From Doris montereyensis (Eukaryota; Mollusca; Gastropoda; Nudibranchia; Dorididae), in assembly GCA_037039925.1 (NCBI GenBank), contig JAXRKP010000203.1:228501-292500 (forward strand): a stretch of DNA of 64,000 nt, written 5' to 3'. The translations under genes and the position numbers were made by a program. The first letter of the stretch is position 1, and each line of letters begins with the position of its first letter. Positions 3,563 to 57,624 of the stretch are shown in pieces. The notes below the pieces were generated by a model. It worked only from the letters and a program-made list of their open reading frames with translations, was not told the origin of the DNA and searched no databases.

Positions 3563-3773
3563 AAATCTGTCACGCTGAACGGGTGAAAATGATAAAAAGG
3601 TTGACGTGGTTTTGGTCCAGTCCTCCACCCATCAGTCGTCAACGACTGGACAGCCTTTAAGGACAGTCACAAAACTGTTTGAAAATTTCAAACAGCAAAA
3701 CACAAGAATTGGATTCATCACCTATGGTGGATCAGGAACTTTACCAACCAAAGATGCATCTTATGAAGAAAAG
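3563..3773 (+). CDS. VWA-like exon (with frameshift)
   Basis: The acceptor has a good pyrimidine tract (TTTTTTTCTCCCTGTGTCTAG, up to 3562); the donor is AAG|GTTTTT, a weak match. Reading KSVTLNG at the start and then ENDKKVDVVLVQ requires a one-base change near 3581-3584 (GGGTGA). Downstream of that the frame is open to the donor. Ends in phase 0. Confidence 0.5.
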
Positions 3774-12331: not shown

Positions 12332-12404
12332 GAGGAGATTAATATTGTGCTGAGAGATAATGGGACTGATAATTGTCGGAAATTGCATAAAGCATTTGAT
12401 GAGA

Positions 12405-12410
12405 AATAAA
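12405..12410 (+). promoter_or_regulatory. poly(A) signal AATAAA of the VWA-like gene
   Basis: AATAAA lies 74 bases after the stop codon, which is a suitable place for the 3' end. Confidence 0.5.
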
Positions 12411-12955: not shown

Positions 12956-13016
<61 letters not shown>

Positions 13017-16312: not shown

Positions 16313-16639
16313 TGGGAACAAGATTGATGAATTTATTTAAAATATATACACACAACATTCCTACAGATTGACAAAAAGTAAATTTAGATGAATCTGGCTT
16401 TAAAATTTATACAAGGATAAGTTTATAAAAATCTGTGCGTTACAAATAATGTACAAACAACAGGTGAACATTTTAAGACCTTGTATATGATTTCATATTG
16501 ACAAAGTTAGCTTTTAGTTTAGACATCTTATACTATACAGTGGAGTCTACATTAAGCCAATTTGCTTTAACATCATTTAAAAGGGGGAAAAAATTAAAAT
16601 CATTCCTACAGATTTTCGGCAATTTACCAGGTCTTTCCT

Positions 16640-17708: not shown

Positions 17709-17931
17709 TCAGTATCTCACAGACATCCACACTAAGCCCACAGCACTCAAGCCAAGTCCAACTTTCCAGTAGAGCGTCCGCGTTTCACTGAACGCATTAA
17801 AGGCCACGAATCCCCCACTCCAAAACATCACAGACGGCAGAAGACTTTTCATCGGTAATGGCTTGGAAACGCTTTTCCCCGGAAACCTCATTTCCTCTTC
17901 TGAAGCGCCTCCGTAAAATTCTGCCAACAGA
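17709..17931 (-). CDS. AGPAT5: AGPAT5 exon 8 (terminal)
   Basis: Acceptor TTTTCTACTAG|TCTGTT. Encodes LLAEFYGG, then RFPGKSVSKPLPMKSLLPS and hydrophobic segments ending in WMSVRY, stop TGA at 17711-17709. The EFY and RFPGKSV parts and the C-terminal hydrophobic pair are characteristic of AGPAT5. Confidence 0.9.
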
Positions 17932-20900
17932 CTAGTAGAAAAGAATAAAAAAACCAAACAACATTAAATTTATAAAGAACAGCTCTCTCCTTGACCTAGA
18001 GTCATTTTCATACACGATTACATGAGTTATTGCACTTTCAGAGATTGGCAAAAGAAAGAATGATGTACATAAAATTGATACTTTCACATATTAGACAAAT
18101 GTAACTCTTTACATTATATATATACCTCTCTCTATATCGTATCTAATTCCATATCTATCGGACATATCTTGATAACATCTATTTGATAAAATATGCTGAT
18201 GATATGTAAATTCAAGCACTTATTACCACAGAAGCTGATATGACAGACAACACACAAATAGTTAATAATTTTGTCCACCGGTGTGATGAACACTTTTAAC
18301 AACTAAACGTCAAAAACCCAAATACAAATGATTTTTGACTTTAGGATAAAAGCTCCCGACCCTTCTAAAATCATACTTAAAATAGAAAATTATTGAAAAG
18401 ATCAAAGAATATAAATATCTCAGTATAATCTTTGATGAAAAACGAGGATGGCGGTCACAAGCAAGAAGAACACTATGAAGCCTTAACAAGAGAATGTATT
18501 TCATGTGGAAATTGCAATTTACACATTTATACAAAACTAATGTTTTTTTTTTTTTTTAACACATGCAAATAACACAATGTGATTTCATGTTCAAGGATCA
18601 ATAAAGGATATCTTATCTATTTATCTACTTGTATACCTATCAATCTATCTATCTACATTCATGTAAAATAAATTTATATCTAAAAATATACTTTTGCTGT
18701 ACTTAACAAAAAAACATTTTTAAAAAGTCACACCGTCTGTAACATCTTCAACATAAAATATTAATAAAAGGAACAAAAAATAAGGCAAAAAAGCTATTCA
18801 CCCCAGAAAAATGGTAGTGATCTCTGACGTTGCAAGTACATTTGATTTTGATTTGATTTGATTTGATTTACCCACATCCACAACTAAGGTGATCTTGGGT
18901 TTTTTGGTAGGATTTTTGTTGAATTTTGACTGTAAACAGCCAGGGGATCTTAAACATGCACAGAGGACCTCCTTTTTATCGTCCATCTCTGATGGCACTA
19001 GGTGTCAATCCACCTACCTGGACCAGGGGGTAGATTTTGCTAAAAAAAAATTGAGAAAATTTTTCAACCGTCGGCAGGGTTCGAACCCACTACCTTGTTA
19101 TTGAGAGACTGACACCTTGCCTCTGAACTAAAGAGTCCCCTCTGTTGCAAGTACAGGATGAAGAAATTCAATTAATTCTAAAATGAGAGAAAAGTTGATG
19201 TCATATCAACTCTCCTTGAACTCAGGCGCAAGTTATATCTATACATATAATACAAGATAACGATAAAGCTGACTTTCTCTAACATTAAGCCCTATAAAGT
19301 CAAGCACCACTGGACCAACGACCACCGTATTTCACATATAAGTTTCAAATAGTCTGCTTTAGGTTCTTAGCGAATTAACTATTAGATCAAATTAGTATTT
19401 GAATTGATAGGAAAAAGATTGTTTGTCTGCGATCGAGGAAACTTTTTAATGTTACTAGGTCTAATTCATCAGATTTTGGTCTGTATAATAAAAGTCCAGC
19501 GTAACCTCAGTATCAAGTACTAATACGACCTAATACCACTAATCATACTTGATATCACCCGTACCCGATACAGTGGTTTCTGATACAGAGAAATCATATT
19601 CCACCATATATCTGGGCATGCTTGAAATATATACCTATAACCTTCCGTACCTGTCTTTCTCTTTGTATTCTTTGTACAGCCACTCTTTCAATTCATGCTC
19701 CTCATGGGGAACGTCTTTTATGGGAATTCTTTTGACATGGAGATGAATTCTTTTAGGAAGGCCCATCAAGAAATCTATTGAAAGGGTAAAGAACAGAAGT
19801 TTTAAAATATTTATTACAGAAGCAATGAGTGAAGACAGTCCACAACCAAGAAATTCACGACAACATCAAAGAGAATGTGTTCTTGTATCATATGTGTTAT
19901 TACATCAAATGTCATCAAAGGGGGAGGGGGAACCTAAAAACATTATTAAATGTATTGCAATATTAACATTCTGATGAAACCTCTCTCTGCTCACAGCTAG
20001 ATCCCCGCCTCCCGCTCCCCTCAGATAAATGGTAGATGCAGTCAGGTTATTACCCAACTCAGATAAATGGTAGATGCAGTCAGGTTATTACCCAACTCAG
20101 ATAGATGCAGTGTTATTACCCAACTCAGATAAATGGTAGATGCAGTCAGGTTATTACCCAACTCAGATAAATGATAGATGCAGTCAGGTTATCACCCAAC
20201 TCAGATAAATGGTAGATGCAGTCAGGTTATCACCCAACTCAGATAAATGATAGAGTCAGGTTATCACCCAACTCAGATAAATGATAGATGCAGTCAGGTT
20301 ATTACCCAACTCAGATAAATGATAGATGCAGTCAGGTTATCACCCAACTCAGATAAATGATAGATGCAGTCAGGTTATCACCCAACTCAGATAAATGATA
20401 GATGCAGTCAGGTTATTATCCAACTCAGATAAATAGTAGATGCAGTCAAGTTATTACCCAACTCAGATAAATGGTAGATGCAGTCAGGTTATTACCCAAC
20501 TCAGATAAATGATAGATGCAGTCAAGTTATTACCCAACTCAGATAAATGGTAGATGCAGTCAAGTTATTACCCAACTCAGATAAATGATAGATGCAGTCA
20601 AGTTATTACCCAACTCAGATAAATGATAGATGCAGTCAGGTTATTATCAATTTTTGCCACTTAACATTGACATGATGGCTTCCTACAATGCGAAGGTTAT
20701 CTCCCAAATCATCAATATTTCTACACTATAAGAGGAAACAAATAACACGTTGTCAGCAAAAAGCGAACTTCAATTTTCCTACCTCATTGAAAAATTCCTA
20801 CCTAGGAAATGAAACAACCTACCGACACTGAAAATAAGAAAAGTGTCTAGTTCCATGCAATAATCATTATAAGCTTGACAAAAAGTATCAATTCAAATTA

Positions 20901-23900
20901 TTGTGATTGAACAGCTTTTTATCTCCCTTCATTAAAATGGAACGTCATCAAACACTATCTTAATGTTTTGTTTCAGATCTTTCATATTTCAGCATTTTCT
21001 ACAGTCACTGCCCCATTTCAAATGTTTTTTAAAGAAAAAAAGATGGATTTATAGTCTGTATTTCCACACAGGTGCAGGCTTACTGACTGTATATCATTTA
21101 TCCGTCAGCAGACCATTTCATTCAAAATCCTTCTCAACTACCGGGAGAGCATACAGTACACAAGCCTGTTAAGCTTTTCGTATTAACACTCTTTCTCTAC
21201 CTATACCTGGGAACTCATTCACAATTCAGTCCAGTGAGGAAAGTAGAGTGAAGTACCTTTCCTGAGAGTACAACGTTGTGAACCCCCCCCCCCCCGATGA
21301 CAAGCTCACAACAAAACAGTTCAGCTACATGGCCTTTTACCTATCTTAGACCACAATTTTCGACCACTTCGGCATTTCCAACCTAATTATGACAAATCTG
21401 ACAAATTTCTGACTTTGCGACCTTGAATATGAGTAAGCAAGCAAAGACATGAATAAGCAGCAGTTACTTGCCCTGCATCACTGGAGATCTCTGTCTTTGG
21501 TTCGTTGTAAAGTTGTACGTGTTTCCGTAGGCAACAGTGACATTGTACACACAGTCAAGTGATTCCTTAAGTTGCTCCACACAAATCTGTAAGGCCTTTG
21601 TCCTTGGAAACAAAACTTCTTGAAGAGGTTCACGGCCTGCAAGAAAAAAAAAAACCCATCAAAAAATTCCACATGCAACTCGTTAGCCAATCACACAGCT
21701 GCCAACCTTTATAAATCGAAAAAGACTGCTATAAATCGAAAAACATACTCTGCTATAAATCGAAAAACAGACTGCTATAAATCGAAAAATAGACTGCTAT
21801 AAATCGAAAAACAGACTGCTATAAATCGAAAAACACTGCTATAAATTGAAAAACAGACTGCTATAAATCGAAAAGCAGACTGCTATAAATTAAAAAAAAC
21901 AGACTCGCTATAAATAAAAAAACAGACTCTGCTATAAATCGAAAAACAGGCTCTGCTATAAATCGAAAAACAGACTGTTCAAGCAAACTAATTCTGACTT
22001 GCACGATGGCCCGTAATATTGATAATTTAACTTGAATTATCTTATAAGGCAAATAACAAAAGTCAAAAGTGCAACCGACTTTTACCTAAATCTCTGAATT
22101 TCTGCCATTAGGTTGGGGTTTCTTAAAAATAATTACAGTTAATCCTGTCATTTACAAACTGTTCAAAGTAAATACAGACTTACAAAATGACATTCTTGTA
22201 AATTCATAGAATTGAGTCATAGCCTGTGTCACAGATAAAGAGAACTCAAACCAAACCAAACCTAAAAGATCATAAGCAACTTATTCAAAAGTCAATGGAA
22301 TTTTGTCATTGACACTTATAAGTGCTGAGCTCAAAAGAGTTTTCACATGAAGTGCTTGTCTTGCAGGGTTAGGGATCTTGAGTTAAAAACCTGTGTGAAT
22401 ATGCAGTTGCTGTCAGTAACCACCCCACCCCTTTTTCACCATTCACTTTTTCCCATTATCTGAATAGTGGAGGACTCGGTAGTCCAGACGCAAGGTGTCA
22501 GCCTCTCAACCAAAATGTAGTGTGTTCGAGCTCCGCCAACTGTTGAAAAATGTTCACAAGTTTTTTGAGCAAAATCTACCCTCTGGTCCCGGTAGGTAGA
22601 TCGACACCTAGTCCCATCGGAGACGGACGATAAAAACGAGGTCCCATGTGAAGATCATAGCACTCTGTGCACGTTAAAGATCCTTTGGCTGTTCACAGGG
22701 CAGTCCAGGTAAAATTTAAAATCCTACCAAAACCCCTGAGATCATCTTTGTTGTGGATGTGGGTAAATCAAATCAAATCTGAATGGTGAAATGGCGTGGT
22801 ATTGAGTTATCTGTGCAATTTTTTTTTAGAAACAGCAAGCTCGTAAAATGTTTAAAAGCTTAGGTTTTCTCCACACAGAGGCATCAGTGACCTAGTGGCT
22901 AGGTTACCAGACTTGGTATCATGAAGTGCTGGGTTTAAATCCAAGCAAACTAGGTCTGACATTAATTAACACGCATTTTCCCCACTCAACCCAAATGGCT
23001 ACCAACAACAGCTTGGGAGAAAACTCTCCGACACAATTGCATCGTGTCTGGGAGGTGGTTATCATCATCTGCTTCAATTCAAGCTATAAAAACTGGGATA
23101 AACTCTGGTTCTATGGGCCGTAGAGGGCCTTACTCAATCTTCCCAAACATTTCCACTATTGATGGACGTGGGCAAATAAGTTGAACCAAGTTCGCAACAT
23201 GATAAATAAGGCCACTAACAAATCAATAATGCAAAATCCTGCCATTTCAAAATCAGGGGTAAATGATACGGTGCTTGTAGATTAGGAATCAAAGACTGAC
23301 AGGCTGGTCAGAGTCAACCAGAACTTTACTCTTCATCTCAGTTCAATAATATCTAGAATCCTATTAGGAGGCTCGAGAGTCCAGATGCGAGGTGTCTGTC
23401 TCTCAACCAAAAGGTCATGGGTTCAAGTCCTGGCAGGTTGAAAAGCTTTCTCAAGAGGTTGTTGTGTGTGCACATCACAACACTCTGTGCACGTTGGAGA
23501 TCCCATGGCTGCTAACAGGGCAGTCCCAGCAAAATAAAAAATCCTACAAAAACCCCTGAGACCACCTCAGTTGTGGATGTGGGTAAAATCAAATCTAACC
23601 GAATCATAAAATCTTGCAAATGAAACTATGGCTAGATGGATATTCCTTGCCTGACTAGTATTAGTAAACAAGAAAAGGAAGCATCTGTATTTTGACCACA
23701 TTGGTTCTATGGAAATTTGCCCTATCCACCATATGTGGAATCCCAAGGTAAATCAAGAGGAAGAAAACACAAGTTGCTGATACAAGTCACTAAGAACATT
23801 GTTATATTTGTAATAAAAGTAAAATGAAATGACTCTGTTCACAAATATCAAAGCTAAAAACCATAAAACAGTTTTACAAAGCTTTAAACAAGATACCTTG

Positions 23901-26900
23901 ACTTTGGGCAAAGTCTTTGCTGGCTTGGATAGAACGTGGCAGATCTGGGTTATACCTGGTACCCTCGGGAAAAATCACAAGCCACATCTGCACAAAGGAG
24001 AAGACAACTTATTAAAAATAAAGCATTTCCATCTACAATAATCACACCTAATTGATAGAGATTGATACATAGATAGATAGATAAATAGACAGATAGAAAG
24101 ATATGTGCGGTAGACAAATGTTTAGACCGATGGTTAGATATATTTGTATTGCTTTACTTGAAGGCAATGCTCATCGTTATGCCGAATTTGTTTCATCCAT
24201 GAGTACACCTGTACTAGCTTTTATGGCTGCGTACAATTACTACCTTTAAAAAAAAAATCAACATGTTATGTCACTATGACCATATCAAATTTCTCTTTTC
24301 AGAGACGAATAAGTAATTCTGATTCTGACTCTAGAAGAATGGAGTATCTACTAGATTTTTAATTAGTCGTGTTACTACAGCTTTCAACGCTTTTAAACTA
24401 AGCAATAAACATTTCCTTTCCAATTGCTATGAGACAATATTCATGGTTTGATATCAAATGGGAATTTGTATCACATATTTAAGAAAAAGAAAGAAAAGCA
24501 TTGTCAAAAAGATGAAAAAAGCACCCCTCCCCCAACAAACAAATCAACAACAAATCCTTGGCAAATCCAAAGGTAAACAGAGACAGGTGACAGCAAAGCA
24601 AAGATCAAAATATTTAAAATAAATGGATAATATTCAAAATAAACGGATATTCAAAATAAACGGATAAGATTCAAAGTAACGGATAAGACTAAATTTTTCA
24701 TTATTAAAAAATTCATAAATTTTAATATGGCAAACCCACAAGATGAAACACATGGCAGGAAATATAAACTATCATATTGAAGAACTTCATTACCTTGTCC
24801 ATTATCCCTACAATTAAATGGAATTAAAGGGTAAAGTTCATTGAAGGCCATTGCAGTCAAGGGTTAAAGCTTATCCAGAATTCTATAGAGTGAAGCAGAA
24901 CAGGCGATTCTTCATATCTCCTATACATGTATTACATGTACGTTACATATGGAACAAAAGTGTTTGAATTTTGAGATTTTAAAGAATTTGATTTATCCAC
25001 ATCCACCACAAAGGTAATCTCTGGGATTTTGGTAGGATTGTTGAACTTTGCCGGGACTGCCTGTAAACAGCCAAGGGATCATCAACATGCAAGCGTTTGT
25101 GATCTTCACAAGGGACCTCCTTTGTATCGTCCATCTCCGATGGGACTAGGTGTCATCCACCTATTTGGACCAGGGAGTGGGTTTTACTTGGAAAAACAAT
25201 CTGCACGAATCTACCTTTTGGTTAGAGACCAACACCTTGCCTCTGGACCACAAGTACCCCTTGAGCAACAGTTTTATAATGTGAGCAACAGTTTATAATG
25301 TTAGCAAGTGTATAATGTAAACAACAGTGTATAATGTAAACAACAGTGTATAATGTAAACAACAGTGTATAATATAAACAACAGTGTATAATGTAAACAA
25401 CAGTGTATAATGTAAACAACAGTGTATAATGTAAACAACAGTGTATAATGTAAACAACAGTGTATAATATAAACAACAGTGTATAATGTAAACAACAGTG
25501 TATAATGTAAACAACAGTGTATAATGTAAACAACAGTGTATAATATAAACAACAATGGAACATAATGTAAACAACAGTTTGTAATGTGAACAACAGTGTA
25601 TAATGTAAACAACAGTTTGTAATGTGAACAACAGTGGATAATGTGAACAGTTTGTAATGTAAACAACAGTGTATAATGTAAACAACAGTGTATAATGTAA
25701 ACAACAGTGTATAATGTAAACAACAGTGTATAATGTAAACAACAGTTTATAATGTGAACAACAGTGTATAATGTAAACAACAGTTTGTAATGTGAACAAC
25801 AGTTGTAATATAAACAACAGTTTATAATGTAAACAGTGTATAATGTAAACAACAGTGTATAATGTAAACAACAGTGTATAATGTAAACAACAGTGTATAA
25901 TGTAAACAACAGTTATAATGTGAACAACAGTGTATAATGTAAACAACAGTTTATAATGTAAACAACAGTGTATAATGTAAACAACAGTGTATAATATAAA
26001 CAACAGTGTATAATGTAAACAACAGTTTGTAATGTAAACAACAGTGTATAATATAAACAACAGTGTAAACAAATGTTAACAACAGTGTATAATGTAAACA
26101 ACAGTGTATAATGTAAACAGTTTATAATGTAAACAACAGTGTATAATGTAAACAACAGTTTATAATGTGAACAACAGTGTATAATGTAAACAACAGTTTG
26201 TAATGTAAACAACAGTGTATAATGTAAACAACAGTGTATAATGTAAACAACAGTGTATAATGTAAACAACAGTGTATAATGTAAACAACAGTGTATAATG
26301 TAAACAACAGTGTATATATAAACAACAGTGTATAATGTAAACAACAGTGTGTATAATGTAAACAACAGTGTATAATGTAAACAACAGTGTATAATATAAA
26401 CAACAGTGTATAATGTAAACAACAGTGTATAATGTAAACAACAGTGTATAATGTAAACAACAGTTTGTATAATATAAAAACAGGGTATAATGTAAACAAC
26501 AGTTTGTAATGTGAACAACAGTGTATAATGTAAACAACAGTGTATAATGTAAACAACAGTGTATAATGTAAACAACAGTTTATAATGTAAACAACAGTGT
26601 ATAATGTAAACAACAGTGTATAATGTATAATGTAAACAACAGTTTATAATGTGAACAACAGTGTATAATGTAAACAACAGTGTATAATGTGAACAACAGT
26701 GTATAATGTAAAACAGTGTATAATGTAAACAACAGTGTATAATGTAAACAACAGTGTATAATGTGAACAACAGTTTATAATGTGAACAACAGTTTGTAAT
26801 GTAACAACAGTGTATAATGTAAACAACAGTGTATAATGTAAACAACAGTGTATAATGTAAACAACAGTTTGTTTGTAATGTGAACAACAGTGTATAATGT

Positions 26901-32728: not shown

Positions 32729-32805
32729 TATTAAACCCTCATTATAACTATTATAGTCCTAATGCTTTCTTTCTTTCTTTATCAGTTCCCATTCTACCTT
32801 TCCGT
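32700..32805. repeat. inverted repeat of two LINE 3' tails
   Basis: GGGAACTGATAAAGAAAGAA at about 32698 and TTCTTTCTTTATCAGTTCCC at about 32771 face each other across a ~50-base AT-rich spacer. Confidence 0.85.
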
Positions 32806-36674: not shown

Positions 36675-37034
36675 ATGGAACCTTCTCTGCTGCATCGATC
36701 GATCTAACTCAACGTGATAATAAGGAAAATAATGATGAAGGTAGTGTAGAACTAGAAAATCGAGGCCTTGACCAAGATAGTCCATCTCAAGGAGTCCATG
36801 AAAAAAAGATGAGGAAAGTCGGCGCGAGTCCATCAGAATCGGCAACCAGCATCTTGTTGGGCGATAATGTAGTGAATCCACGACTGCCTGGTTCGATGCT
36901 GTAAGTGCAATCAAGAATGATGATGCTGGGACTGGGCCTAAAAGGCTCTCTTTGGAGCCTACAAGTGTCAGGTCGCCTAAAATACAAAGACAGGACAGAC
37001 TATCTGATGTTGGTTTAGGAGGAAAACGATGGAG
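36675..37034 (+). CDS. candidate first coding exon of CABLES (two frame breaks)
   Basis: ATG (36675) opens [10 protein letters not shown]. After a break in the GATCGATC run, a long frame gives [20 protein letters not shown] ... [20 protein letters not shown], and after one more one-base break near 36890, [20 protein letters not shown] ... [20 protein letters not shown], ending at a strong donor GGAG|GTGAGT. The composition (Ser, Lys, acidic, S/T-P) is like a disordered regulatory N-terminus. The open frames on the - strand here are shadows. Assignment to CABLES rests on position, strand and phase (2 bases left over, 1 base at 42600). Confidence 0.45.
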
Positions 37035-40000: not shown

Positions 40001-43000
40001 ACTACAGTAAGAGATCAAAGCAAAGCAGATGGCATGATAAAAACTAAGATAGAAATCAATCAATTGAGATGATTTGGGCATGTAAACAGAATGAATAACA
40101 ATGAATAGCTAAATCAGTATACAGTGCTAAAGGCCAAGGTAAAAGACCAAAGGCAGACCTCAGAGAAAGTGAGAAGAAAAATATAAAGCATAATTAAAGC
40201 ATAAAAGCATTAAAGATAAAAGCATTAAAGCATAGAAATTTAACTTTTCTGGAAGGTAACAGAAAATGCCAGGACAGGGCATCCTGGAGCATCTGGGGCA
40301 TGTGAACCCATACACTGAGAGGTAGAATGGGAACTGATAAAGAAAGAAAGGTGGGGGAGGGGGTGGTGGGTGGTATTCAGATGAGTCTCCCCTACCTGAA
40401 TAAGAGTCACAAAGAGATTGGTATCAAGTCTACCACGTTGTTTCTGTTTCTACTTGATGGTCTACCACAAACCAGTCTGACAACTGTTCCGTTTGCCAAT
40501 CTACTATACTACTGTCTACTAGAATCTACAATACTTAACATTTTCCTCCGTATCAATGCAGGCTTGGGAATTGTCTTCGGCTGCATTTTTAAGTCCTGTA
40601 AAGGACTGTTGGTGTGTTTGTAGTTGTCTTTTGTCATAAATGTTTTTGCTTGCAGAATGGTCTCGATGTCATTTTGGAGACGGTGAACATGTTCCAGGCG
40701 TGTCCTTCCTCAAAATCAAGTGAATGAAACATTGACTTGCCTCGTCTCTTTTATATTTTGAAGCCACATAGATCTGACCAATCAAATTTTAGCGTTTTTT
40801 AAGACGTCCATCCACTCACACACAGCAATTGTAATCGTCACTGCCTTTGATCTATCCTCCCGCTACCCAGCTGGTCATTGAATGTTGAAGTCGTCTCCAG
40901 AGCTAATGCACCCATGCGATGTCCAATCTGTCCATGTCTAGTCCCATCCGATCACTGTCTGATAGACAGGTTGACAAGTACCGTTAGACCATAGTCATTC
41001 TGGTGGGATTTACTTTAGAATGGATTATAGTGAGGTAGACCCGCATCTAAATATTAGTGCAAATATTCCAAAAAATTACTGAAAATAGAGATATATATAT
41101 ATCTACATGCTTATACTCGATAATATGCTTAATATTTATTTATCTGATTGCTAATATTCTGGGAATGCCATTTTTACAGAAAATGGGACAAATCTAGTCT
41201 ATCATACTAGTGAATAGAGCAGTTCATTCCCGTCATAATGATATCATAAAAGAAGCTCAGTATCGATTCTTTGAATTTATACAAATTTTTTAGAAACAAT
41301 ACAGGCCTATCTTTCAACACAGCTATTATACAATAAAAGCCAGAAATATTATCTTAAGAATACGGCAAGTTGGTAGTCATTTTGATCGCCACAATGAACG
41401 CTATCCAAAAGAACCTTATTTGAGCATCTTTTATGAATATTGCCTTAGATCGGCCGGAAGTTACGGAACATATTCCGCGCACCTATTATCAAAAGGCACC
41501 ATCTCACAATGAGTAAAGGTGCTGGTGCACTTGAAACAGTGTCAGTAAGAAGTAGTTGAGAACCTCTCAAGGTTTTATGATGTTTCAAAGTATTATCCTA
41601 CTCTTTTCTTAGGTTTATGGGAGAAAATGTATTCAAATAACAGAAAATAAGAGAAAATACGAATATCTCAATTTGTCATGTTTTGGACTGTTTTTTTCTA
41701 ACTTAGCTCGCATTTTTATCTGATTGACTTCAAATTTGGCACAAACCTTGCTTTTGATGCATGGAATAAAAGAATGCAAGCGTTAGATTTGTTTACTTTC
41801 CGAAAAATGAATTTTTTAGTTGAATAAGATTGCTGTAAATTGTAAACATTTTATATGCAACTTTCAACACCCCATCAAACTAAAAGTTTGATAGATTTGT
41901 CGAAACCCATTTTGTTCTATAGATGTATATGAAGGAGTGTACTGATTTTGAGACACATTCCAAAATCATTCATGCAGATTTTACATTTTGAAACTGCATG
42001 TTATGTTAGCGTCATAAATCCAATATGGTGGCGTTGCCATGGCAACAACCGACAAAATTTCAGTTTCTCATATTTTCTCCTCTAACTTGGATACACATAG
42101 AACTAAAAAATCGAGGTCCTAGTTGGCTTGCTGTATGGGTTTTCAATTGGCTTTTCAGAACGCGCTCCTCCCCTTAAGAATTGATGTCCTGTTTGACCCA
42201 GAAGTGAATGCAATTAAAATAAGTGGCCTGGTGGTTTTTAATTTATCATGCCAGATAGTATTAATTTTCAGATAGTATTTGATTGAGTATTGATGTATCT
42301 ATCTTTTGACGATTATTCATGGGGAGGCAGGACATTTCCAAATAGAGTATTATTACTTAGGTATGAAAGAAGAATTGCACAGCCCAATTATAATTTTCTT
42401 ACTGGACAAGGCTTTTGCTGGGTAGATAAATGCAGTGAATATTCTCTTGCATAGATAAAGTTTTGTTTTTAGATGTTGGTGCTAAAAATCATTTACAAGC
42501 TGAGACTAGTGTGATAATGTCTAAAAATAGTTTTGCTCACAGAAGACTGTGGAGTGTTGATTAATTTCTATGATCTCCTGTTTTGTCATTGTGTTTCAGG
42601 GCGTCATCATATTCCAGGGATAAACCTGGTAAGACATGCCGAAACAGACTTTTGCATTTACACTCTGATCCGTTTGATCGCTTCTCTGGGGCATTCAACA
42701 GGCAACATTGTGTGGAGGGTCAGGCTTTGGGTGACTATCTTTCTCAAGCCAAATTGTTTTCTTTTCTATTGTGGTGGCACACAGAGTAACTTCCTGCAGC
42801 TTTGTTGTCACTTACCGATTTGAATCACTATTGTTGACAGCTTGATCCTGTACTACTCACTATGCATACATAGAACGCATAAGCCTTGAAAGTTGTGTTG
42901 TTTACCAAATGTTACGAATGATAAAAATTCATACAATTCTGTCCATGGTAATTTTCACAGCTGAAAGAAAGCTATCTAATTTTTGTGCATGAAATTGGAA

Positions 43001-44379: not shown

Positions 44380-46949
44380 CATTTTTGTAATTTTGATGCA
44401 TGTTTGAAATGTCTGTTGATCATACCGTACGTTTTAAAATTGAATTTATTGTTATCCTTGCTATTGTGAAAATACAACAGTGCATTGAATAGATATCTGG
44501 CATGTTGAATGGAGAGGCTAATCTATGAGCTGTCATGGTGTTCACCTAATCCTTTGTATTATTTTAGGAGAATGCCCTTCACTCACATTAAAGCAAAGCA
44601 TTGTAAGTTTCAAGATATGGTGAAGAAGGTGGGCCGTTGGTTGAAGTCAAGCTGTATAGTATAGCATGTTTTTATCCAGTGGCCTTTTGGTATTGTTTGC
44701 CTTGCTGGTGATTTTCTGAAACTCGTTTTGTTTGACATATATGATATTTCAGTTATTAAATTAAAAACCCGAAAATGCCAGTTAAATCACTGAAACACTG
44801 GCATAAATAAACAGACAGAAATAAAAAATGAAAGAGAGATAAATTATCTAACATCAATCCCCCTTAACTGTGTAATCTAAATTTGAAGTGTTTTTATGTC
44901 CTTTTTTCTTTTATGATTTCTATTTCACGTGAAGGGGGGGGGGGTGAATATGTACTTGTATACGTATGTAAAAGTACAATAATGTGTTTCTTCATGTACA
45001 TGTGGTAACAAACAGCTACTGCCTTTGTGATGATTTTGGCTTGGACAATTTACGTGCTAAAAAAACTTTTGTTTTCGTATAAATTTTCATTGCCTCCATG
45101 GTTATGTTGATGCTGTCATGTGTGTTTTATTGGTCAGGTGAGAGAAGCCGTGATCTAGCTCACTATCTGTAGAATCCCTTCAGTCGAGCCTTAAAGATCC
45201 TGTATCTGTGATCAGTGATGTGCAACAAGCGGGTCCTGTGAGAAACAAAAGGTTGGTCAATGCGGCCGTTTAAAGACTTTTAACTCAATGATCTGCACTA
45301 TCTCAATGCAGTGTCCTTGTACTAAAAAAAGCACCTATTTTAAAGCATTTTATGGATGTTTAAAGGCAAACTTATTATTCACTGGATATGTCTCACCAGA
45401 GAAATAAACGAAAGGCTGTAGGAATTTTTTGTTAAAAAAGATTTTGCTTGGCTTTTACTTAAAAAACATTGTTCTGTGCTGTGAATTGTTATATTTTCCT
45501 GCTTTAAAGGTTTCGCGAATAGTTTTTGTTTTAAAATTCTGACAGTTTCTTTTCAACACCAAATGGAATAGACACTGTCTTCCCTGAACCAGCTGAAATT
45601 ATTTGATGGGCAAAATGAACAGGCAAAAAGACAGAAACTGTCCCTCTTACTTTCAAAATTTATGGAACTTTTAAAAATGCTTTGAAGCAGTTAAGGTCTT
45701 GTGCTGCCTCAATCCACCTGCAAATTGGTCAGATGAAATGGCCTTCATGAAGGATAATTTCATCCTAAAAATCAGTTTCACTAGATCTTTTCTCCTGTTG
45801 ACAAAAACAAAAATTGGCCCGTAAGAAATGTTAAGGGTAACTGAGTAAAATGAGAAAAATTTTGTCTGCTAGTTCATCTGGGTTTTTCATTGAACCAACT
45901 TAGTTGTGTCAAAACTACATTTTTACCTTCTCGTAAGTGAGCAGTTTCCCTCTTACACATATCTTTCATGTCTCTGTTTTCTCTTAATTCACCCTGAGAT
46001 CACGGCATATGGTGGATGAAATGAATTGTAATGAAACAGACAAGCAAACCTACAGAATCCTAGTAAATAATTACCTCCCCCACACTGAGGTTCCAGAGCC
46101 TGTACGTGCTGCATGTCAGTGATGTCAGGCAACAGTTCATAGGTCAGGACCGCCTTCGTTTTGAAAGAAGGGAACAAGGTGGGATGTGTGAAATTATCTG
46201 GCATTTTGTCTTAAGGCCTGTACATTGATATTGTATTAGCCTGTCACTGTCAGTCAAGAATGGGTATTTTGATGGTGCTGCCCAAGGGACAATCTGTTGA
46301 TGAGGTATACTTACAGGTCTGAGGGATGATTCATGCTGAATACATGTACCCATGTAGCAATATCTCCTTCCGTGAGGAGCAAATATCGCAATCTTCGTTA
46401 GGTTGGTCTTTATCTAACAATGGGTTTGAGTGTATTTGAATATGGTTTCAACTATTTAGTTTTGGGAATAATTGACATATTGCCATTGTGAACAGATTAT
46501 TCTTATCTCACAGGTGAAGCGAAACTACATCATTTCTTGATATTTTCTGACAACATGTTTGGATTTAGTTTAACACAATGCTACATGTATTTCATTCCCA
46601 GGGTTTTCTTTGTGTCGTCAAGCAAATGTCCCCTTGTGGTTAGCTCAGTTTTATCATTCACAGTCCGACAGTCTCATAGGTAATTCTTACTTAATGTTTT
46701 TACAGGGTAATTGCAAATCTCACAAGGTGTTCTTTTCATCACATAGTCAACATAACTTGCTTTGCTTTTCACTTTCCTTCTTTGTTAAAATGTTTATATG
46801 GAATTTTGATACAATTTGTTTAGTATATATATAGCTGTTTGGTAACTGTATTGTGTGTATGAAGCTGCCCATGTGATTTTTATTTTCTCATATTTTTTGT
46901 TTTCGCAAAAAAGTTGGTTTGTAGATAAGGTTTAAAATCAAAATAACAT

Positions 46950-47005
<56 letters not shown>

Positions 47006-47030
47006 TTGTAATAATAATAATAATAATAAT

Positions 47031-47098
<68 letters not shown>

Positions 47099-50000
47099 AA
47101 TAATAATAATAATAATGATAATAATAATACTTGTAATAATAATGATATTAGTATGTAAAATGATCTTAGAAATGGCTTTAACCATCCGATGGCATGAGCC
47201 CTGATTTTCATTTTTAACAAAAATTTGAATTTAATGATTTTTCATATTATTATGAGGAAATCAAGTTTTTCAGGATTCTTAATTATTTTGATTTCTTAGT
47301 TATTATTTATGTGTAATTTTGTGGTGTCTGTGGAAGAGTGGTTAGGAAAATGTGTGCTTCAAAACTATCGCTTGTCATGTATTTTATGCATTATACAATA
47401 TATTTTAAATATTAAAATTTATTATTTATTTAAATTTCTAGGGTAGATCATCCCCCGGATGAAGGGAGGGTTCGACATTTGTCGAGTCACTCTGGCTCTA
47501 AGTCTGTTTCCTCACAAGAAGGTCTATTGTTTGTTGGTTTACAGCAGTACAACGCCAAACAAGATGAGGTGAATTAGTGATTAAACTTTACGTTGGTCTT
47601 CTGATGTGTAGTTTTTGTAGCATGAACAAGACAAAACTTATTGGCCTACTCTTTCATTGAAGCAAAATGTTCTGTTTGTTTGAAAAATATGTTTTATTTG
47701 AAAAATGTGACTTTCATGAACTTGGTTTGTGTCGTCAGTTTGATTTACTAGATTATAATGGATAAAGAAAGAAAACTTTAACCATTTTATCGTTTTCTTT
47801 TTCTTTCCTTTTTTGTGTGTGGAAATAACGGACATATTTTGGTATTCCTCAGGAGATTTCTTACAGTAAATTTTTGGTGGCATCCAACAGGAAGTCCTTT
47901 AAACGACTGACAACCGATTTGAAAGACCACCCATCCCAGTGTATGTTTCTTTTCTTTTTTTAATTCCTTGTATGTTGTTCTTCTTCCTGTGTATTTGAAA
48001 TGATGTGTGCTCATGAGTAAAGTGAAAGTTCCTTCAAGGCCCTTGAGGCCTAATGAGCTTGAGCTTATCCCGGTTTCTTTGCGTGAAGCGTAACCAGTGA
48101 CAATAATCACATCCTGGCCAAGACACTAGTCTGATGCAGGTTTTTACTCCCAAGCTAGTGCTTGTACCCATTTGCACCTGGGTAGAGTGGGGGAAATGTA
48201 TGTTAAGTGTTTTTCGCAAGGAACACAACGTCGGACCTGGCTTTGCTAGGATTCGAACTTGACCTCATGATCCCCAGTCCGGCAGCCTAACCATTCGGCC
48301 ACCGACGCTTGTGTGCTTATGAGGGAGAACGTTTTTCAAAAGTCTTTTGACATATAATATGAAGTCACTTCAAATTGCCACTATATCTTTAATGATTTTA
48401 TTAAGTACGGCCTGAATTTTCTTGATGTATTTTCAAGTACAATTTATATACATTTATTTGTATATGTTGCGATTTAAGTAAAATAATTCCAAGAACCCAC
48501 ACATTTAAACACAGATTTAAATTCATGGGTGGGTGTTTTCTTTAAGCTGTGTGTTGATATGATGACTGCTGGTGATACAGTGTTTCTCTGCAGATTACCT
48601 CAGATTTCAGATTATTTGAGGCTTTCTAGTTTTAACATAGTTTTCTCTTAAGTTTCCTTTTTTTCCCTTTTACTTAAATACTTCTGTGTTCACTGTTATG
48701 ATTAGGTGAGATGGTTTAGCACAACAGGATAAAATTCCCGACCCCAGGCCCATCGCCGATGTTCATACCGGTGCTAATCATAAGTGGAAGCACACTGCTT
48801 TATTTTAACTTTCACGACGAACGACAATTTCCACACTGATCAGTGAAGCCCTACTACTCACACAAGAAGATTTCAGATTTAAAAATCGAAATCTTCTTTA
48901 CTCCCTTTCAGATTTTTTATTCTGAAATCTATTTACTGAATTTGTTAGGGAAATAACCTTTGCGCGAAAGGGTTTTGGGATATTTTTAGACAATGTTGAG
49001 ATGCACTGACTTACCTCTCTGCCGTCGATGGTTTTTCATTCTTTCATTCCAGGAAAATTGAAGCTAAGTCATTTTAAATTTCCTATTGCGTTATTTGCGA
49101 TTTATGTTATAATCCTATTTGTGGGTTATTGTGATTTAATAATGTAATCTAGGTCTAGAGCTAGACAAGATGAAGATCGATCTGCTTGAGTGAAGTGACC
49201 TAGGTTCTAGATCTAGATTTTTATTATGACAGTATAACAGCCCTAGGCCGTAGCGTTCCCTAGGCCATAGCTTGGGTTAGTATATCAGTGAATAAATACA
49301 TCTAGCTTGTTAACAGATTCAAATTATTTCTTGCTCAGCGTTCCAGAGAAATTGAGATTTAGATCTAGATTCTAGTCGGATAGAGAGATCTTGAAAATAA
49401 GCGCACATGTTGCTGATCTAGATTCTTATAGATTTAGTTTGTAGACAGACATGCTATTTTATGGTATATCTGGATTCAGTCTAGTAAGATCTAGATAAGA
49501 TATATCTAGATCTAAGTCTAATTGTTATCTAGAGGACTAGCAACTATGAGAGTAGATTTAGATTTCTAGGTCTAGAATTTGTCGCACCCTTTTTCTTCAA
49601 TAACTTTAGTAAAGCTAGAGTTAGATTTCTAGATCTGCTTGGTAACCTAGTTAATAGAATCAGAATTGACCTAGAATTTTGCTATAACTGTTATAATAAC
49701 AAGCAAATCTTCAAAACAACTAATTCTAGATCTAGGTTAAAGGTAAGCTAGCTCCAGAATGTAGATCTAGACAAGTTAACAAATTGGGGATGGCCTGTCA
49801 AAAGTTAAAGTTTACTAATCGCAATTCACCAGTGGATGTGGATGATCTAAACCTAAGTTCTATATCTGAGAACAAATTCTGGCTGTCAACCTAAGATTGT
49901 AATGGTGAATTCCTTTCTACTTATATCACGAAGGTTGAGAAAGATGGCATTGCATGGTACTGTTATTGTAAGTGTGAGATTGAATACGATATAGAAGATG

Positions 50001-53436: not shown

Positions 53437-53476
<40 letters not shown>

Positions 53477-53478
53477 TA

Positions 53479-53541
<63 letters not shown>

Positions 53542-56500
53542 TATTATTGTTATCACAGACATCATTATCACTATAAGTATTATTATTATTACAAATTTTA
53601 ATATCATTGGTGGTGTTGTTTTAATATTGTTAGTATTAAAAATGTGCTTATGACCGCTTTTATTGTCATTGTACTTCAGTGCCGGAAGATAACAATGAGT
53701 ATCACCCAAATTGCCTGGATGACCCGGAGTTGCAGTCAGGCAGTTACAGAACTTGAGCTGACCTTTCCTTCTTACATGGTACATTTTATTGTTTGTTAAA
53801 CACTGATGGCTAGATTTTTTACAGCCCGCAATTGTAGATAAGATTCTGTATTGACTCCTATTGTCATTTCCATGAAGTAATTCTTCCCTGTTCTTACTCC
53901 ACCAGGGTTTTCCAATCTTCCGCCCTTTCCATGGGCAGTTGGCAGACACTACTGGTGGTTCCTTCTTCTTTCCTTTCTATCTTTCATATTTCTTTTATCA
54001 TGCTGTATTCGCCTCTGAGATCACCGCATATGATGTACAGAGTAATTTCTTATCAACGTGTCCTTTCCTCCGATCATGGCACAACTCACACCATCTATAC
54101 AAACAGACAAAATGCACACACAGTAGAAGATTGCAAAACATCTTGATCTTCCAAGCTCTTTTTAGAACTCCAGAAAATACAGAACTTATGTGAGAGAGAA
54201 AGAGGCAGACTGAGCACAATTAGGTTAGATCCATAAAATTAATATCACCACAGCTGTAGATGTAGTGAACAATTACAAACACATGATCTCACATGGTGAC
54301 ATCTCTGCCTAGTATTCTTTCTGCACATCTAGTGTTACATTGATTTCATACTCAAATAGTCTCACACCTTTCCTTCATCTTTATTATAATAATATCTGCT
54401 CAACCAAACGTAATGAATTCATAACATTGCTACATATTCTTTTTATTGGACAATAAAAAATATTCCAATGCATGATGTAAAAAAACCCTCACCAAACAAC
54501 GCTTTTTAAGCATTTAAATTTTCGATCCTCCTCCCCCAGACGTCTATCATAGACTATGTGAAACCATCTATGTTGAAAAAAGAGCTCAATGAGAAATTCA
54601 AAGAAAGGTTTCCGAACATCAACTCACCCTTTCAAAACTCAGAAGGTAAGTTGCTTTATGTGGTAAAACTGTATCACCCTGAGATCATCACATATGGTGG
54701 ATTGGGTAAATTTATATGGTGGATTGGGTAAATTTATATGGTGGATTGGGTAAATTTATATGGTGGATTGGGTAAATTTATATGGTGGATTGGGTAAATT
54801 TATATGGTGGATTGGGTAAATTTCAATATCTCATTCAATGAATAAACTACTTGAAACTAAATTTCTTTGTGTGATAACACTAGATATTATTATAGGCAAT
54901 GTTATTCTGCAAAGCGCCTGTCTTTAACTGCTACAACAGTCATCCAACTGGTAGTTTTCTCCATGACTTTGATGTACTGCGAGCTTAGTGATAGTTTGTC
55001 TTACCTCCAGTTTTACTGTTTTTAATGGATGTCATTATCTTGTATAATAGGTAATAGAGGTTATAAACCTTTATTTGATTGACAAATATATCTTGACAGA
55101 AACCCTTAATGTGTGGCATTGGAAATGCATTTAGTGACATGTCCATCAACTTTTTCACACCAGTCCAAAAGTCATGAGCTCACTTCTCAAAACTAGAAAA
55201 GCAAAGAAATGAAAAGTAAACATAATATGTACTAGGTGGATATTGTTGTTAGTTCATCAAGGAAGCCAACCTGAAGGAAAATAAACCAATGCTAAGAAAG
55301 GGAGGTTATGAGCCTTGCACGGAGCAAGATTGGGACAACTTTGGTTGGTTTATGCTAATTCACTGACTTCCGTTGTAGCAGATTGCAAAAATGAGATGTT
55401 CCTTAGGTCAGTTTTGTTTGATTCTGTAATGTCTCAGCTTTTCCTATGGTCAAATCAGTGTTTACTTTCTCTTGACAGCCTCAAACGTGAATTGCTTCAT
55501 ATTGCTCATGCACGGGTGAGTTGAACATTGTTTTTGTAATAAGTTGATATTAACTGGTGTTGATTTACAAGGGAATAACTTGTTGGACAGTAGTTATTGT
55601 TTAAGATGAAAGTGATTGATATGACTAAACACTTAATTGACCACAATTAATTGTGGAGATATTTCTCATCTATTGTCTGACACAGGATTTAACCCCTGGA
55701 CGTCTTGTGTTTTCTTTGGTGTAGTTGCCACTTATTGCGGTTTATCATTTTAAAAATTGATTGATATTTTTTTTAAGGTTTGCACTGATGCGACATTAGA
55801 GTATAGGCGATGAAAAGTTTGAAACTAATTTTCATGTGATTTTTTTGGCTGCTGCCAATTCGCTCATCTTGTCTTATGCATGTGTTTGTATTTTCTTTCT
55901 CTCTTCTATTTCAGTGTTCAGTTGATTTGTGGACCGTGGCTCAAGCTTATGTGTTTTTTGAAAAAATAATTCTCAAAGTAAGTGGCAAAGGGCTGCACAA
56001 ACTGGTTGCGGTGGCTTTTGTACTTGAATGAGTATATATGAAGATATACTATTATACTATTTATACACAAAGGGCGTTTGTCTCTCTCTCTCTCTGTCTC
56101 TGTCCCTGTCTCTCTCTGTGTGATTTCAAGCTTTTAATATTATATAAATTTAGTACTTTAGCTTTAGTTTGTATATGAATGGCTTACCTTTTGTGTTAAA
56201 GAATTTTCTGTTTTATGACACTCCCCCGCAAACTTTTATTTCCTAAAATAAAAAAAATTAGACTCATTTTTTGTGTGTGACCATTTCAGACTTTTTTTCT
56301 TCCCTGTTTGCTTTTTGCCAGCAACTAGATCTGCATTATTATTATTTTGCATCATCCTTTTCCTCACTGACATTTGGACATAATTGTACAACTGTCATTG
56401 TGAGCAGTCACTAGAAAGTAGGCATGTTACATAAATATCCTTTTGATGTGCGAAATTTCAGCAATTGATCACAAAACAAAACCGAAAGCTGTGTGCCGGG

Positions 56501-57624
56501 GCCTGTCTGTTGCTGTCGTGTAAGCTGAATGACGTCAAGGGACCAGTTTTAGGCAAACTTGTGGAGGTAATCCATCGGATTAAGTTTGTCTTTCTCATCC
56601 AGACCTGTGTTGAAAGAACACTCTTTTGTTTTGATTTCAAGTTACGGTTTTCTCTCTCATCGAGGTCTGTGTTGAAATTGAAAGAACTCTTTTATTTTGA
56701 TTTCAAGTTACGGTTTTCTCTGTTATCCAGGCCTGTGTTGAAAAGATACTCTTTTTTCTGATTTTAAGTTACAGTTTTTCTGTAATCCAGGCCTGTGTTG
56801 AAAAGATACTCTTTTGCTTTGATTTCAAGTTAAAATATTGAACGTGAGTGGTTAGAGCACTGCTGGTAGGTCCTACTTCTTTCCTTACACTCTTTCACAT
56901 ATCTTTCATTTTGCTGTTTCCTCTGAATTCACCCTGAGATCACTGCGTGTGGTGAACGGGATAACTTTCAATGAAACAAATGTAACATTGAACAAAAGTA
57001 ATTGCTAATTTCATCAAGTTGGTTTTTAATATTTTCATGGATTTTCCTCAGTAGGAAGAGTAAGTTGTTTTTGCTTGTTTGTTATGGGAGGATTTTTGCA
57101 CTTGTATTTACATGGACATGGGATTGGGTAGCTTGCTTTTTGTTGCTGTTGAAAGGTTAATGTCAGAATTGAAATGATTTATTTATTGATAATATGATCA
57201 GATAACTCAAATGTTCTATTCATGTACCTTTTATGGGATAAATGAAACATATCTATATTTTGTATGAGCGTTCATCTAACTGACATGCAGTTTCAAACAA
57301 AACATCCTCACCATATGACTTGTTTTTAAAAATTCTTGTCTCAAATGGACTTTTTTTTTGTCAAAGAAGAAATTAAAAAAGAAGACGTTGAAATCAGGAA
57401 TTTCTTAGTAATGTTATTCTCTACTCTAAGAATATTGTAGAGCCTTGTCTTCTCTTCTCATGCCTTGTATCTCTTTTTTTGCAGCAAAGTGTTGATCGTC
57501 TCGAGTAAACCGCAAAGATCTCCTTCAGTACGAGATAGAATGCCTGGTAGCCATTGAGTTTTACCTTCACATTCCTGACACAGAGATTTATCCTCATTAT
57601 CAGCGAATCATGTACAAGTCATGA
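36675..57624 (+). CDS. CABLES: CDK5 and ABL1 enzyme substrate (CABLES1/2 orthologue), multi-exon
   Basis: CABLES proteins bind cyclin-dependent kinases and promote inhibitory tyrosine phosphorylation by linking them to non-receptor tyrosine kinases; they end in a cyclin-box-like domain. Nine exons (46602-46679, 47442-47568, 47853-47940, 53680-53778, 54540-54645, 55479-55515, 55915-55977, 56462-56566, 57485-57624) give, in order, the V-x3[18 protein letters not shown] region, [104 protein letters not shown] and [13 protein letters not shown]. All are collinear with vertebrate CABLES1/2 as I remember them. Candidate upstream exons (36675-37034, 42600-42628, 44571-44605, 45138-45251) are less certain. 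Four exons need a one-base correction. The start at 36675 is tentative. Confidence 0.85.
37160..40350 (+). mobile_element. RTE-type non-LTR retrotransposon (LINE-2 of window), degenerate
   Basis: 5' region (37175-37480) homologous to the first LINE. Endonuclease start at 37490-37726 ([20 protein letters not shown] ... [11 protein letters not shown]). Middle fragments at 37807-38016 and 38665-38880. RT fragment at 39061-39258 ends FIDLE, then TAG, then AFDT, so the palm motif A is interrupted by a stop. RT motif at 39485-39760 reads FANDLVLF, where the catalytic pair FADD has lost one Asp. The 3' end at about 40330-40350 is GGGAACTGATAAAGAAAGAA. A dead copy, oriented opposite to the LINE at 32765-35640, inside the presumed CABLES intron 1. 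Confidence 0.88.
40351..41165. other. intron sequence with no recognised feature
   Basis: A 98-codon open frame at 40327-40623 begins inside the LINE tail and has no recognisable homology. Otherwise I see nothing here. Confidence 0.4.
41170..42075 (+). repeat. ~0.9 kb dispersed element, copy 2
   Basis: Collinear with copy 1 over its whole length: GAATAGAGCAGTTCATTCCC, GAAGCTCAGTATCGATTCT, GATGTTTCAAAGTATT, GGTGGCGTTGCCATGGCAAC. More diverged in the middle. No open frame of note. Confidence 0.75.
42600..42628 (+). CDS. possible CABLES exon (short form) or start of a longer one
   Basis: Strong acceptor TTTTGTCATTGTGTTTCAG|G and donor CCTG|GTAAGA. The 1-base start phase fits the 2 bases left by 37034; the exon reads ASSYSRDKP. 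The frame stays open for another ~40 codons past this donor ([20 protein letters not shown], then [16 protein letters not shown], to 42789), so a longer exon or read-through is also possible. Not recognised by homology. Confidence 0.3.
42800..43880. other. intron sequence with no recognised feature
   Basis: GATCCCTGTATATGTGATAA-like short direct repeats at 43595-43700 only. Confidence 0.4.
43885..44045 (+). repeat. ~115-bp dispersed element, reference copy
   Basis: Order of blocks: TTTCTTTCCTTTTCAC, CTTTCATCTTGCTGTTTCC, TCTTAATTTATCCTGAGATC, ACTGCATATGGTGGATGGGG, TAAATTTCAATGCAACAAAC. The same order recurs at 45930-46040, 53945-54050, 54660-54835, 56875-56985, 63375-63470, and in reverse at 12832, 13885 and 16640. 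No tRNA head, long terminal repeat or coding capacity is visible. Confidence 0.72.
44341..44380. repeat. (TA)n(TG)n microsatellite
   Basis: (AT)9-10 followed by (GT)9. Confidence 0.95.
44571..44605 (+). CDS. candidate small CABLES exon
   Basis: Acceptor TATTATTTTAG|G and a perfect donor GTAAGT. Reads [11 protein letters not shown] with 1 base left over, which joins exactly to the 2-base start of 45138. The support is splice signals and phase; the peptide is too short for homology. Confidence 0.35.
45138..45251 (+). CDS. candidate CABLES exon (one-base deletion)
   Basis: Acceptor GTTTTATTGGTCAG|GT, end AAAAG|GTTGGT. Reads [10 protein letters not shown] and, after adding one base near 45179, [20 protein letters not shown], then GPVRNK. 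The 2 bases left over join the 1-base start of 46602 to give N-K-R|V-F-F, comparable with N-G-R|I-V-L of vertebrate CABLES1. The exon length is also correct only with the extra base. Confidence 0.5.
45930..46045 (+). repeat. ~115-bp dispersed element copy
   Basis: CTTAATTCACCCTGAGATCA, CGGCATATGGTGGATGAAAT, then GAATTGTAATGAAACAGACA. Confidence 0.7.
46602..46679 (+). CDS. CABLES: CABLES exon
   Basis: Acceptor TTCATTCCCAG|G, donor CATAG|GTAATT. Reads [20 protein letters not shown], then VRQSH. It matches the I-V-L-I-S-G-R-R-S-F-C-S-I-F-S-V-L-P-Y-R stretch of vertebrate CABLES1. Phase 1 in, 2 out. Intact. Confidence 0.75.
46952..47145. repeat. (AAT)n / (ATG)n / (AAT)n compound microsatellite
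   Basis: About 190 bases of TAA units, an ATG block at about 47031-47096, then TAA again. Poly-Ile, poly-Ser and poly-Leu frames on the - strand are artefacts. Confidence 0.97.
47442..47568 (+). CDS. CABLES: CABLES exon
   Basis: Acceptor AATTTCTAG|G, donor GATGAG|GTGAAT. Reads [20 protein letters not shown], then [20 protein letters not shown]. Ser-rich, then the GLxxVxL segment. Phase 1 in, 0 out. Intact. Confidence 0.8.
47853..47940 (+). CDS. CABLES: CABLES exon
   Basis: Acceptor TATTCCTCAG|GAG, donor CCCAGT|GTATGT. Reads [20 protein letters not shown], then TDLKDHPSQ, corresponding to VSYTQFLLPTN of CABLES1. Intact, one base left over. Confidence 0.82.
48040..48305 (-). mobile_element. 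tRNA-derived SINE, family A, copy 4
   Basis: Reverse orientation: GTGACAATAATCACATCCTG, CCCATTTGCACCTGGGTAGA, TAGGATTCGAACTTGACC (B box), AACCATTCGGCCACCGACGC (A-box side). It starts about 100 bases after a CABLES donor. Confidence 0.8.
48310..49140. other. CABLES intron sequence with no recognised feature
   Basis: AT-rich. Nothing recognised. Confidence 0.4.
49141..49770. repeat. TCTAGATC-rich segment
   Basis: At least fifteen TCTAGA or AGATCT words (for example ATCTAGATTCTTATAGAT and ATCTAGATCTAAGTCTAA) occur at irregular intervals, as at 35680-35860. No regular period is apparent. Confidence 0.6.
49790..50089 (+). pseudogene. zinc-finger-like reading frame (hAT-transposon-like N-terminus?), one stop
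   Basis: ATG 49790 to TGA 50087-50089 gives exactly 100 codons with one in-frame TAA (49892-49894). Around the stop it reads NKFWLST then [40 protein letters not shown]. The pattern W-L, D-x-NG, Y-x2-K, A-x-C-x-C and a final H resembles the N-terminal zinc finger of hAT-like 'W..D..G' proteins common in marine invertebrates. Family membership is an inference; the stop may be real or an assembly error. It lies in a CABLES intron. Confidence 0.35.
50190..50320. repeat. ~34-bp tandem repeat, 3-4 units
   Basis: CTCAGATATTACATTTTGTT followed by TTAGTTTAAATCTCA. Confidence 0.9.
50860..50925. repeat. 18-bp tandem repeat, 4 units
   Basis: TCAAACAGGTACTCACCT repeated. It includes repeated CAGGTACTCACC words that mimic splice donors on both strands. 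Confidence 0.9.
51000..52660. other. CABLES intron sequence with no recognised feature
   Basis: G runs at 51028-51037 and 52521-52529. The open frames have no recognisable homology. Confidence 0.4.
52685..52745. repeat. short ATGGATC/CAGTCAGGTCCC repeat
   Basis: CCCATGGATCCGTCAGATCC, CATTGATCAGTCAGGTCCCA, TGGATCAGTCAGTCAG: three imperfect ~20-bp units. Confidence 0.7.
53170..53345 (-). mobile_element. tRNA-derived SINE, family A, copy 5 (head missing)
   Basis: GGAACAGGTGATGATCCATC, GGTACCCATTTGCTGTTGGG and GTCTTTTCTAAGGGACACAA match the family body. The tRNA-like head is lost. Confidence 0.65.
53437..53600. repeat. (ATT)n microsatellite
   Basis: About 40 ATT units with minor interruptions, 80 bases upstream of a CABLES acceptor. 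Confidence 0.97.
53680..53778 (+). CDS. CABLES: CABLES exon (one-base insertion)
   Basis: Acceptor TGTACTTCAG|TG, donor TACATG|GTACAT. Reads [20 protein letters not shown], then SYRT; in the next frame ELTFPSYM. Removing one T at AACTTGAG (about 53751-53754) joins them and makes the exon end in phase 0. It corresponds to Y-D-P-N-L-L-D-D-P and I-F-P-S-Y-M of vertebrate CABLES. Confidence 0.83.
53930..54055 (+). repeat. ~115-bp dispersed element copy
   Basis: GGCAGACACTACTGGTGGTT, CCTTCTTCTTTCCTTTC, CTCTGAGATCACCGCATATG, ATGTACAGAGTAATTTC. The open frames here are artefacts of the element. Confidence 0.65.
54540..54645 (+). CDS. CABLES: CABLES exon (one-base deletion)
   Basis: Acceptor CTCCCCCAG|ACG, donor CAGAAG|GTAAGT. 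Reads [20 protein letters not shown], then [12 protein letters not shown]. One more A in the A4 run of CAAAACTC (about 54633-54637) gives K-L-R and 2 leftover bases that join the next exon as R-S-L-K-R-E, exactly as in vertebrates (K-I-R-S-L-K-R-E). Confidence 0.9.
54660..54840 (+). repeat. dispersed element copy with 22-bp tandem expansion
   Basis: CACCCTGAGATCATCACATA begins a copy of the ~115-bp element, then TATGGTGGATTGGGTAAATT (22-bp unit) repeats six times before the copy resumes with TTTCAATATCTCATTCAATG. Confidence 0.9.
54841..55478 (+). other. CABLES intron sequence with no recognised feature
   Basis: Nothing recognised before the acceptor at 55478. Confidence 0.4.
55479..55515 (+). 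CDS. CABLES: CABLES mini-exon
   Basis: Acceptor TTCTCTTGACAG|C, donor CACGG|GTGAGT. 37 nt: (S)[12 protein letters not shown]. It corresponds to S-L-K-R-E-M-R-K-L-A of CABLES1. Confidence 0.85.
55915..55977 (+). CDS. CABLES: CABLES exon, start of cyclin-like domain
   Basis: Acceptor TTCTATTTCAG|TGT, donor CTCAAA|GTAAGT. Reads [21 protein letters not shown]. Matches T-V-A-x-A-F-V-Y-F-E-K-L. Exactly 21 codons, intact. Confidence 0.9.
56070..56118. repeat. (TC)n microsatellite
   Basis: TGTCTCTCTCTCTCTCTG and similar, in a CABLES intron. Confidence 0.85.
56462..56566 (+). CDS. CABLES: CABLES exon, cyclin-like domain core
   Basis: Acceptor GAAATTTCAG|CAA, donor GTGGAG|GTAATC. Reads [20 protein letters not shown], then [26 protein letters not shown] is nearly identical to vertebrate CABLES. 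35 codons, intact. Confidence 0.93.
56580..56835. repeat. ~65-bp tandem repeat, 4 units
   Basis: GTTACGGTTTTCTCTCTCAT, CCAGACCTGTGTTGAAA, ACTCTTTTGTTTTGATTTCA. It starts just after a CABLES donor; the 98-codon open frame mixes exon and repeat. Confidence 0.85.
56870..56985 (+). repeat. ~115-bp dispersed element copy
   Basis: GGTAGGTCCTACTTCTTTCC, CATTTTGCTGTTTCCTCTGA, ATTCACCCTGAGATCACTGC, then GTGAACGGGATAACTTTCAA. One of the best preserved copies. Confidence 0.75.
57485..57624 (+). CDS. CABLES: CABLES terminal exon (one-base deletion)
   Basis: Acceptor TTTTTTTGCAG|CAA. Reads QSVDRLE, then TAA as given. With one extra G at GAGTAAAC (about 57509-57511) it continues [39 protein letters not shown] to TGA 57622-57624. 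It matches the F-x-L-N-R-R-E-L ... V-A-L-E-F-x-L-H-L-P-x-H-E-V-x-P-H-Y-R-R-L end of CABLES1. Confidence 0.9.

Follow-up and report, generated by a model that had tools for sequence, protein, structure and literature searches.

Single-base indel errors, which change homopolymer lengths and break reading frames, are described for long-read assemblies in PMC8812927 and PMC12007338. The genes studied here resemble the cases set out there in that one-base indels in base runs break the frames of otherwise conserved genes. Those two papers concern small, mainly bacterial genomes, unlike the present one, and for the breaks of the window itself, considered separately, no excess of base runs was seen. 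A literature search found nothing tied to this particular assembly.

The window, by which we mean the whole 64,000-nucleotide stretch of Doris montereyensis DNA that was analysed (contig JAXRKP010000203.1; G000:C1147:228501-292500), comes from an assembly totalling 513,438,767 bases in 3500 contigs. It carries genes for AGPAT5 (1-acyl-sn-glycerol-3-phosphate acyltransferase epsilon) and CABLES (CDK5 and ABL1 enzyme substrate) and a VWA-like gene (Table 1). We consider it highly probable (about 95%) that the frame breaks are residual indel errors of the draft assembly, mostly miscounted short base runs, over intact AGPAT5 and CABLES genes. Breaks were called with a frame-shift-tolerant profile-to-DNA aligner written for the purpose, with 11 AGPAT5 and 10 CABLES proteins of gastropods as queries.

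Table 1. Gene features of the window and the frame breaks found or proposed in them (window coordinates).
Feature	Coordinates	Strand	Observations
VWA-like gene, three exons as drawn in the first-pass annotation	3563..12409	+	candidate breaks near 3583 and 11815; in-frame TAG 12329-12331
AGPAT5 exon 1	30867..31081	-	three single-base breaks (30940-30943, 30923-30924, 30888-30889); three shifts with each of six relatives
AGPAT5 exon 2	30100..30184	-	probable compensating pair (30147-30148, 30125-30128); gain 6 over penalty, 3/6 relatives
AGPAT5 exon 3	29246..29361	-	open
AGPAT5 exon 4	27694..27784	-	break 27744-27748 by alignment; one near donor required by splice phase
AGPAT5 exon 5	23897..23987	-	open
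AGPAT5 exon 6	21472..21636	-	open; followed by GC splice donor (GCAAGT) at 21466-21471
AGPAT5 exon 7	19651..19774	-	open
AGPAT5 exon 8	17709..17931	-	open; carries stop codon
CABLES first recognisable exon	36614..37034	+	two or more probable breaks (36644, 36672); aligned over 36614-36790 only, end from first-pass annotation
CABLES exon	42595..42735	+	open, aligned part
CABLES exon	45138..45251	+	one break, 45152-45153
CABLES exon	46602..46679	+	open
CABLES exon	47442..47569	+	open
CABLES exon	47853..47940	+	open
CABLES exon	53680..53778	+	one break, 53751-53754
CABLES exon	54540..54645	+	one break, 54618-54619
CABLES exon	55479..55515	+	open
CABLES exon	55915..55977	+	open
CABLES exon	56462..56566	+	open
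CABLES last exon	57485..57624	+	one break, 57500-57501, mainly by splice phase; shifts 1,1,1,0,0,0 across six relatives

The joined AGPAT5 exons are 61% identical to the Physella acuta protein over the whole query, and the best matches are to proteins of heterobranch gastropods (Physella 61%, Lymnaea 58%, Aplysia 56%). The window gene differs from known AGPAT5 in having frame breaks in two or three of its eight exons, where the aligner placed six shifts over 1132 aligned bases (exon 1 has three of them, exon 4 one, and exon 2 two that are weak). The exon 1 breaks, which the first-pass annotation had put near 30940, 30928, and 30887, were recovered by alignment with 6/6 relatives. That annotation had also proposed two breaks in exon 4; one was called by the aligner, which labelled it +2 (the same frame change as one missing base), and the second, not called by the aligner, is required by splice phase. 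The probable pair in exon 2 was absent from the earlier list. All seven acceptors are AG and the donors are six GT and one GC. The splice phases agree with the alignment frames at every junction after net indels are allowed for, in a check for which we entered the net indel values ourselves and read the frames by eye off a three-frame print.

Over 76-83% of the query, the joined CABLES exons share 63-66% identity with proteins of Bulinus, Biomphalaria, Aplysia, and Physella; in contrast to known CABLES, the gene is broken in 5 of 12 exons and has a weakly conserved first exon. The best matches of the two genes mark the animal as most likely a heterobranch gastropod. Six shifts were called over 1357 aligned bases, a length that takes in a 30-base match at 44585-44614 (score 20), which we discarded as spurious; two of the shifts fall in the first exon and the others at 45152, 53751, 54618, and 57500. 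Breaks had been proposed near 45179, 53753, 54635, and 57510, and the alignment bears out the first three, whereas the last is weaker (3/6 relatives). Two more had been thought possible in 36675-37034; the aligner instead puts two just upstream, at 36644 and 36672 (FS score for this exon, 53 versus 36), and aligns nothing past 36790, so neither of the two was confirmed in that range.

Together, AGPAT5 and CABLES have nine single-base breaks, seven of which are firm by alignment and two mainly by splice phase (CABLES 57500 and the second one of AGPAT5 exon 4), at a density of ~3.6 per kb; we read seven of the nine as missing bases and two as extra bases. Further cases that we count as probable are the pair in AGPAT5 exon 2 and the two breaks placed in the first CABLES exon. 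Broken exons number 7 or 8 of 20 across these two genes, somewhat fewer than the "almost half" of the original claim. When single relatives were aligned, six per exon, the 11 open exons gave no shift in 66/66 alignments, and the broken exons gave shift counts per relative of 3,3,3,3,3,3, of 1,1,1,1,1,2, and, in three exons, of 1 in 6/6; this comparison covered 18 of the 20 exons, the CABLES exons starting at 36614 and 42595 being left out. In a second control, random intron DNA replacing the stretch past the break matched the observed gain in 0/300 trials for 5/6 breaks; this control has no power at CABLES 57500, where the gain was 0 (300/300 trials).

The claim of frame breaks in three genes holds for AGPAT5 and CABLES, by frame-aware alignment and splice phase. 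The two breaks proposed in the VWA-like gene were not confirmed, because that gene has no significant homologue in solved structures (no match at E 1), in Pfam, or in the protein database (0/46 candidates at E 10). Its exons, joined across the supposed breaks, reached 14.3 bits (E 0.05) against the von Willebrand factor A domain (PF00092), below the curated cut-off of 23.8 bits. After the in-frame TAG in its third exon come 25 open codons and then a TAA; the TAG may mark the real end of the gene, or be a genuine nonsense change or an error. Such a stop codon is what true decay could produce, as are the breaks that do stand in the sequence, if AGPAT5, CABLES, and the VWA-like gene were all pseudogenes in the animal; decay is also favoured by the lack of a second AGPAT5 copy that could serve as the working gene or as an independent witness, the genome search having returned seven matches, all on C1147 and all inside the window. 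We nevertheless regard decay as very unlikely. AGPAT5 keeps its splice sites and its stop codon and has no in-frame stop outside the breaks, and the AGPAT5 and CABLES alignments contain no in-frame stops, whereas pseudogenes would be expected to show nonsense changes and splice-site losses besides indels. Moreover, unrelated single-exon genes are equally broken though their codons are under purifying selection.

Some of these genes lie on the same contig beside the window, in a cluster located between C1147 positions 332501 and 432500 (L022, L024, L028/L029, and L031) of single-exon transporter-like genes, which we take to be SLC22-like. L031, picked as the reference for being the longest open frame, is open over 529 codons, and against it the other three are all broken, with 4 breaks in L024, 13 in L028/L029, and 9 in L022, which is partial. 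When the open copy was in turn aligned to read-through proteins taken from the three related copies, it showed no shifts (3/3 alignments). The three broken copies contain no in-frame stops, and pairwise dN/dS among the copies is 0.20-0.27. The dN between two broken copies (0.173) is no higher than that between broken and open copies (0.199 and 0.208), and codons of the broken copies are accordingly under selection.

Similarly, Hsp70 genes on three other contigs are broken. A genome search with HSP70 (PF00012) gave 67 matches, from which we examined five single-exon-looking places on C2102, C3480, and C220; some of the intron-split matches outside these five also show stops. One of the five is intact over 635 codons, and the other four have 2, 13, 7, and 6 breaks. 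Two broken copies are 99-100% identical in protein to the intact one, from which they differ in DNA by 15 substitutions and 2 indels and by 24 substitutions and 6 indels, with synonymous to nonsynonymous codon differences of 10:2 and 14:7. The two C3480 copies differ from each other by 45 substitutions and 17 gap events, with one-base gaps making up 14 of the latter. Their break places coincide at codons 232 and 469, and codon 251 is broken in each as well; the common breaks are compatible with systematic error in the same run, but also with a shared real change. The four broken copies contain a single in-frame stop, in a C3480 copy, and on our reading of the DNA alignment it sits between a nearby insertion and deletion. 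Because the breaks in single-exon Hsp70 genes are one-base gaps against near-identical DNA, they also speak against reading the frame changes as wrongly drawn exon boundaries or tiny introns. AGPAT5 and CABLES are intron-rich, as that reading would need, but homology spans their breaks with the loss of 0 or 1 residue, and we judge such misreading extremely improbable.

Where positions are exact, in the Hsp70 copies, the one-base indels are concentrated in base runs: 21/22 fall in runs of at least two equal bases, which hold 49% of bases, and 16/22 in runs of at least three, which hold 17%. The observed mean was reached by 0 of 20,000 resamples. The transporter breaks likewise adjoin longer runs than the background (P 0.003). 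For the ten window breaks alone, no excess was seen (longest run within 5 bases, mean 2.70 versus 2.64, P 0.47), because a position derived from protein homology can be off by about a codon. The earlier statement that most breaks lie in homopolymers is accordingly borne out by the Hsp70 copies but not by the breaks of the window itself.

Codons that are under selection while their frames are broken in base runs point to residual indel error, which the first-pass annotation had already preferred and which gains support from the spread of breaks over unrelated genes (3/4 on the same contig and 4/5 on three other contigs). A short base run whose length is miscounted would suffice to break the frame of an ordinary intact gene; AGPAT5 and CABLES would then be intact in the animal, and the cause would be long-read consensus error. 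A counterpoint is that the transporter and Hsp70 genes are multi-copy, and assemblies err there more easily. The breaks are also patchy, with 2/9 single-exon genes open; there is no break over 1.6 kb in one gene and 1.9 kb in another, but as many as 9 in 0.9 kb elsewhere.

If the breaks were real and cells coped with them across many conserved genes, either through programmed frameshifts in translation or by editing transcripts, frames would likewise run on past the breaks with conserved residues, as these do. Both directions of shift are seen, though, the breaks share no motif except base runs, and the transporter and Hsp70 genes each also have a copy that is open and free of breaks. We know of no genome-wide frameshifting or editing system in animals, and we give this explanation next to no credence. 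Were the breaks real, expectations for animal coding genes would be overturned, and the evidence is strongly opposed to this. If they are residual indel errors, polishing or reads should come before this assembly is relied on for gene models, for counting pseudogenes, or for claims of gene loss, and the 7/9 examined single-exon genes that are broken are a warning for users of its annotation.

Several other features were seen. The window contains long tandem arrays at 6100-11140 (units of ~30 bases), 14300-16330 (59-61 bases), 20030-20650 (38 bases), 25290-27590 (19 bases), and 60100-61190 (33 bases). Tandem arrays were tried and set aside as a homology-free yardstick for indel error: single-base departures in unit length are present, but real indels occur there too. 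The run-length spectrum of the window was likewise uninformative. N stretches in multiples of 2500 bases occur in L010, L011, L014, L015, L017, L019, L021, L022, L025, L026, L029, and L030 and may be gaps. Low-GC stretches with open frames lie in L012, L027, L028, L031, and L032 and may belong to a virus-like mobile element, judging from the look of the proteins. At ~37463-39757 on the plus strand, the window has open frames that we take, from their look, to encode the endonuclease and reverse transcriptase of a retrotransposon; on the minus strand, at 32760-35400, a comparable copy that looks decayed was seen by eye.
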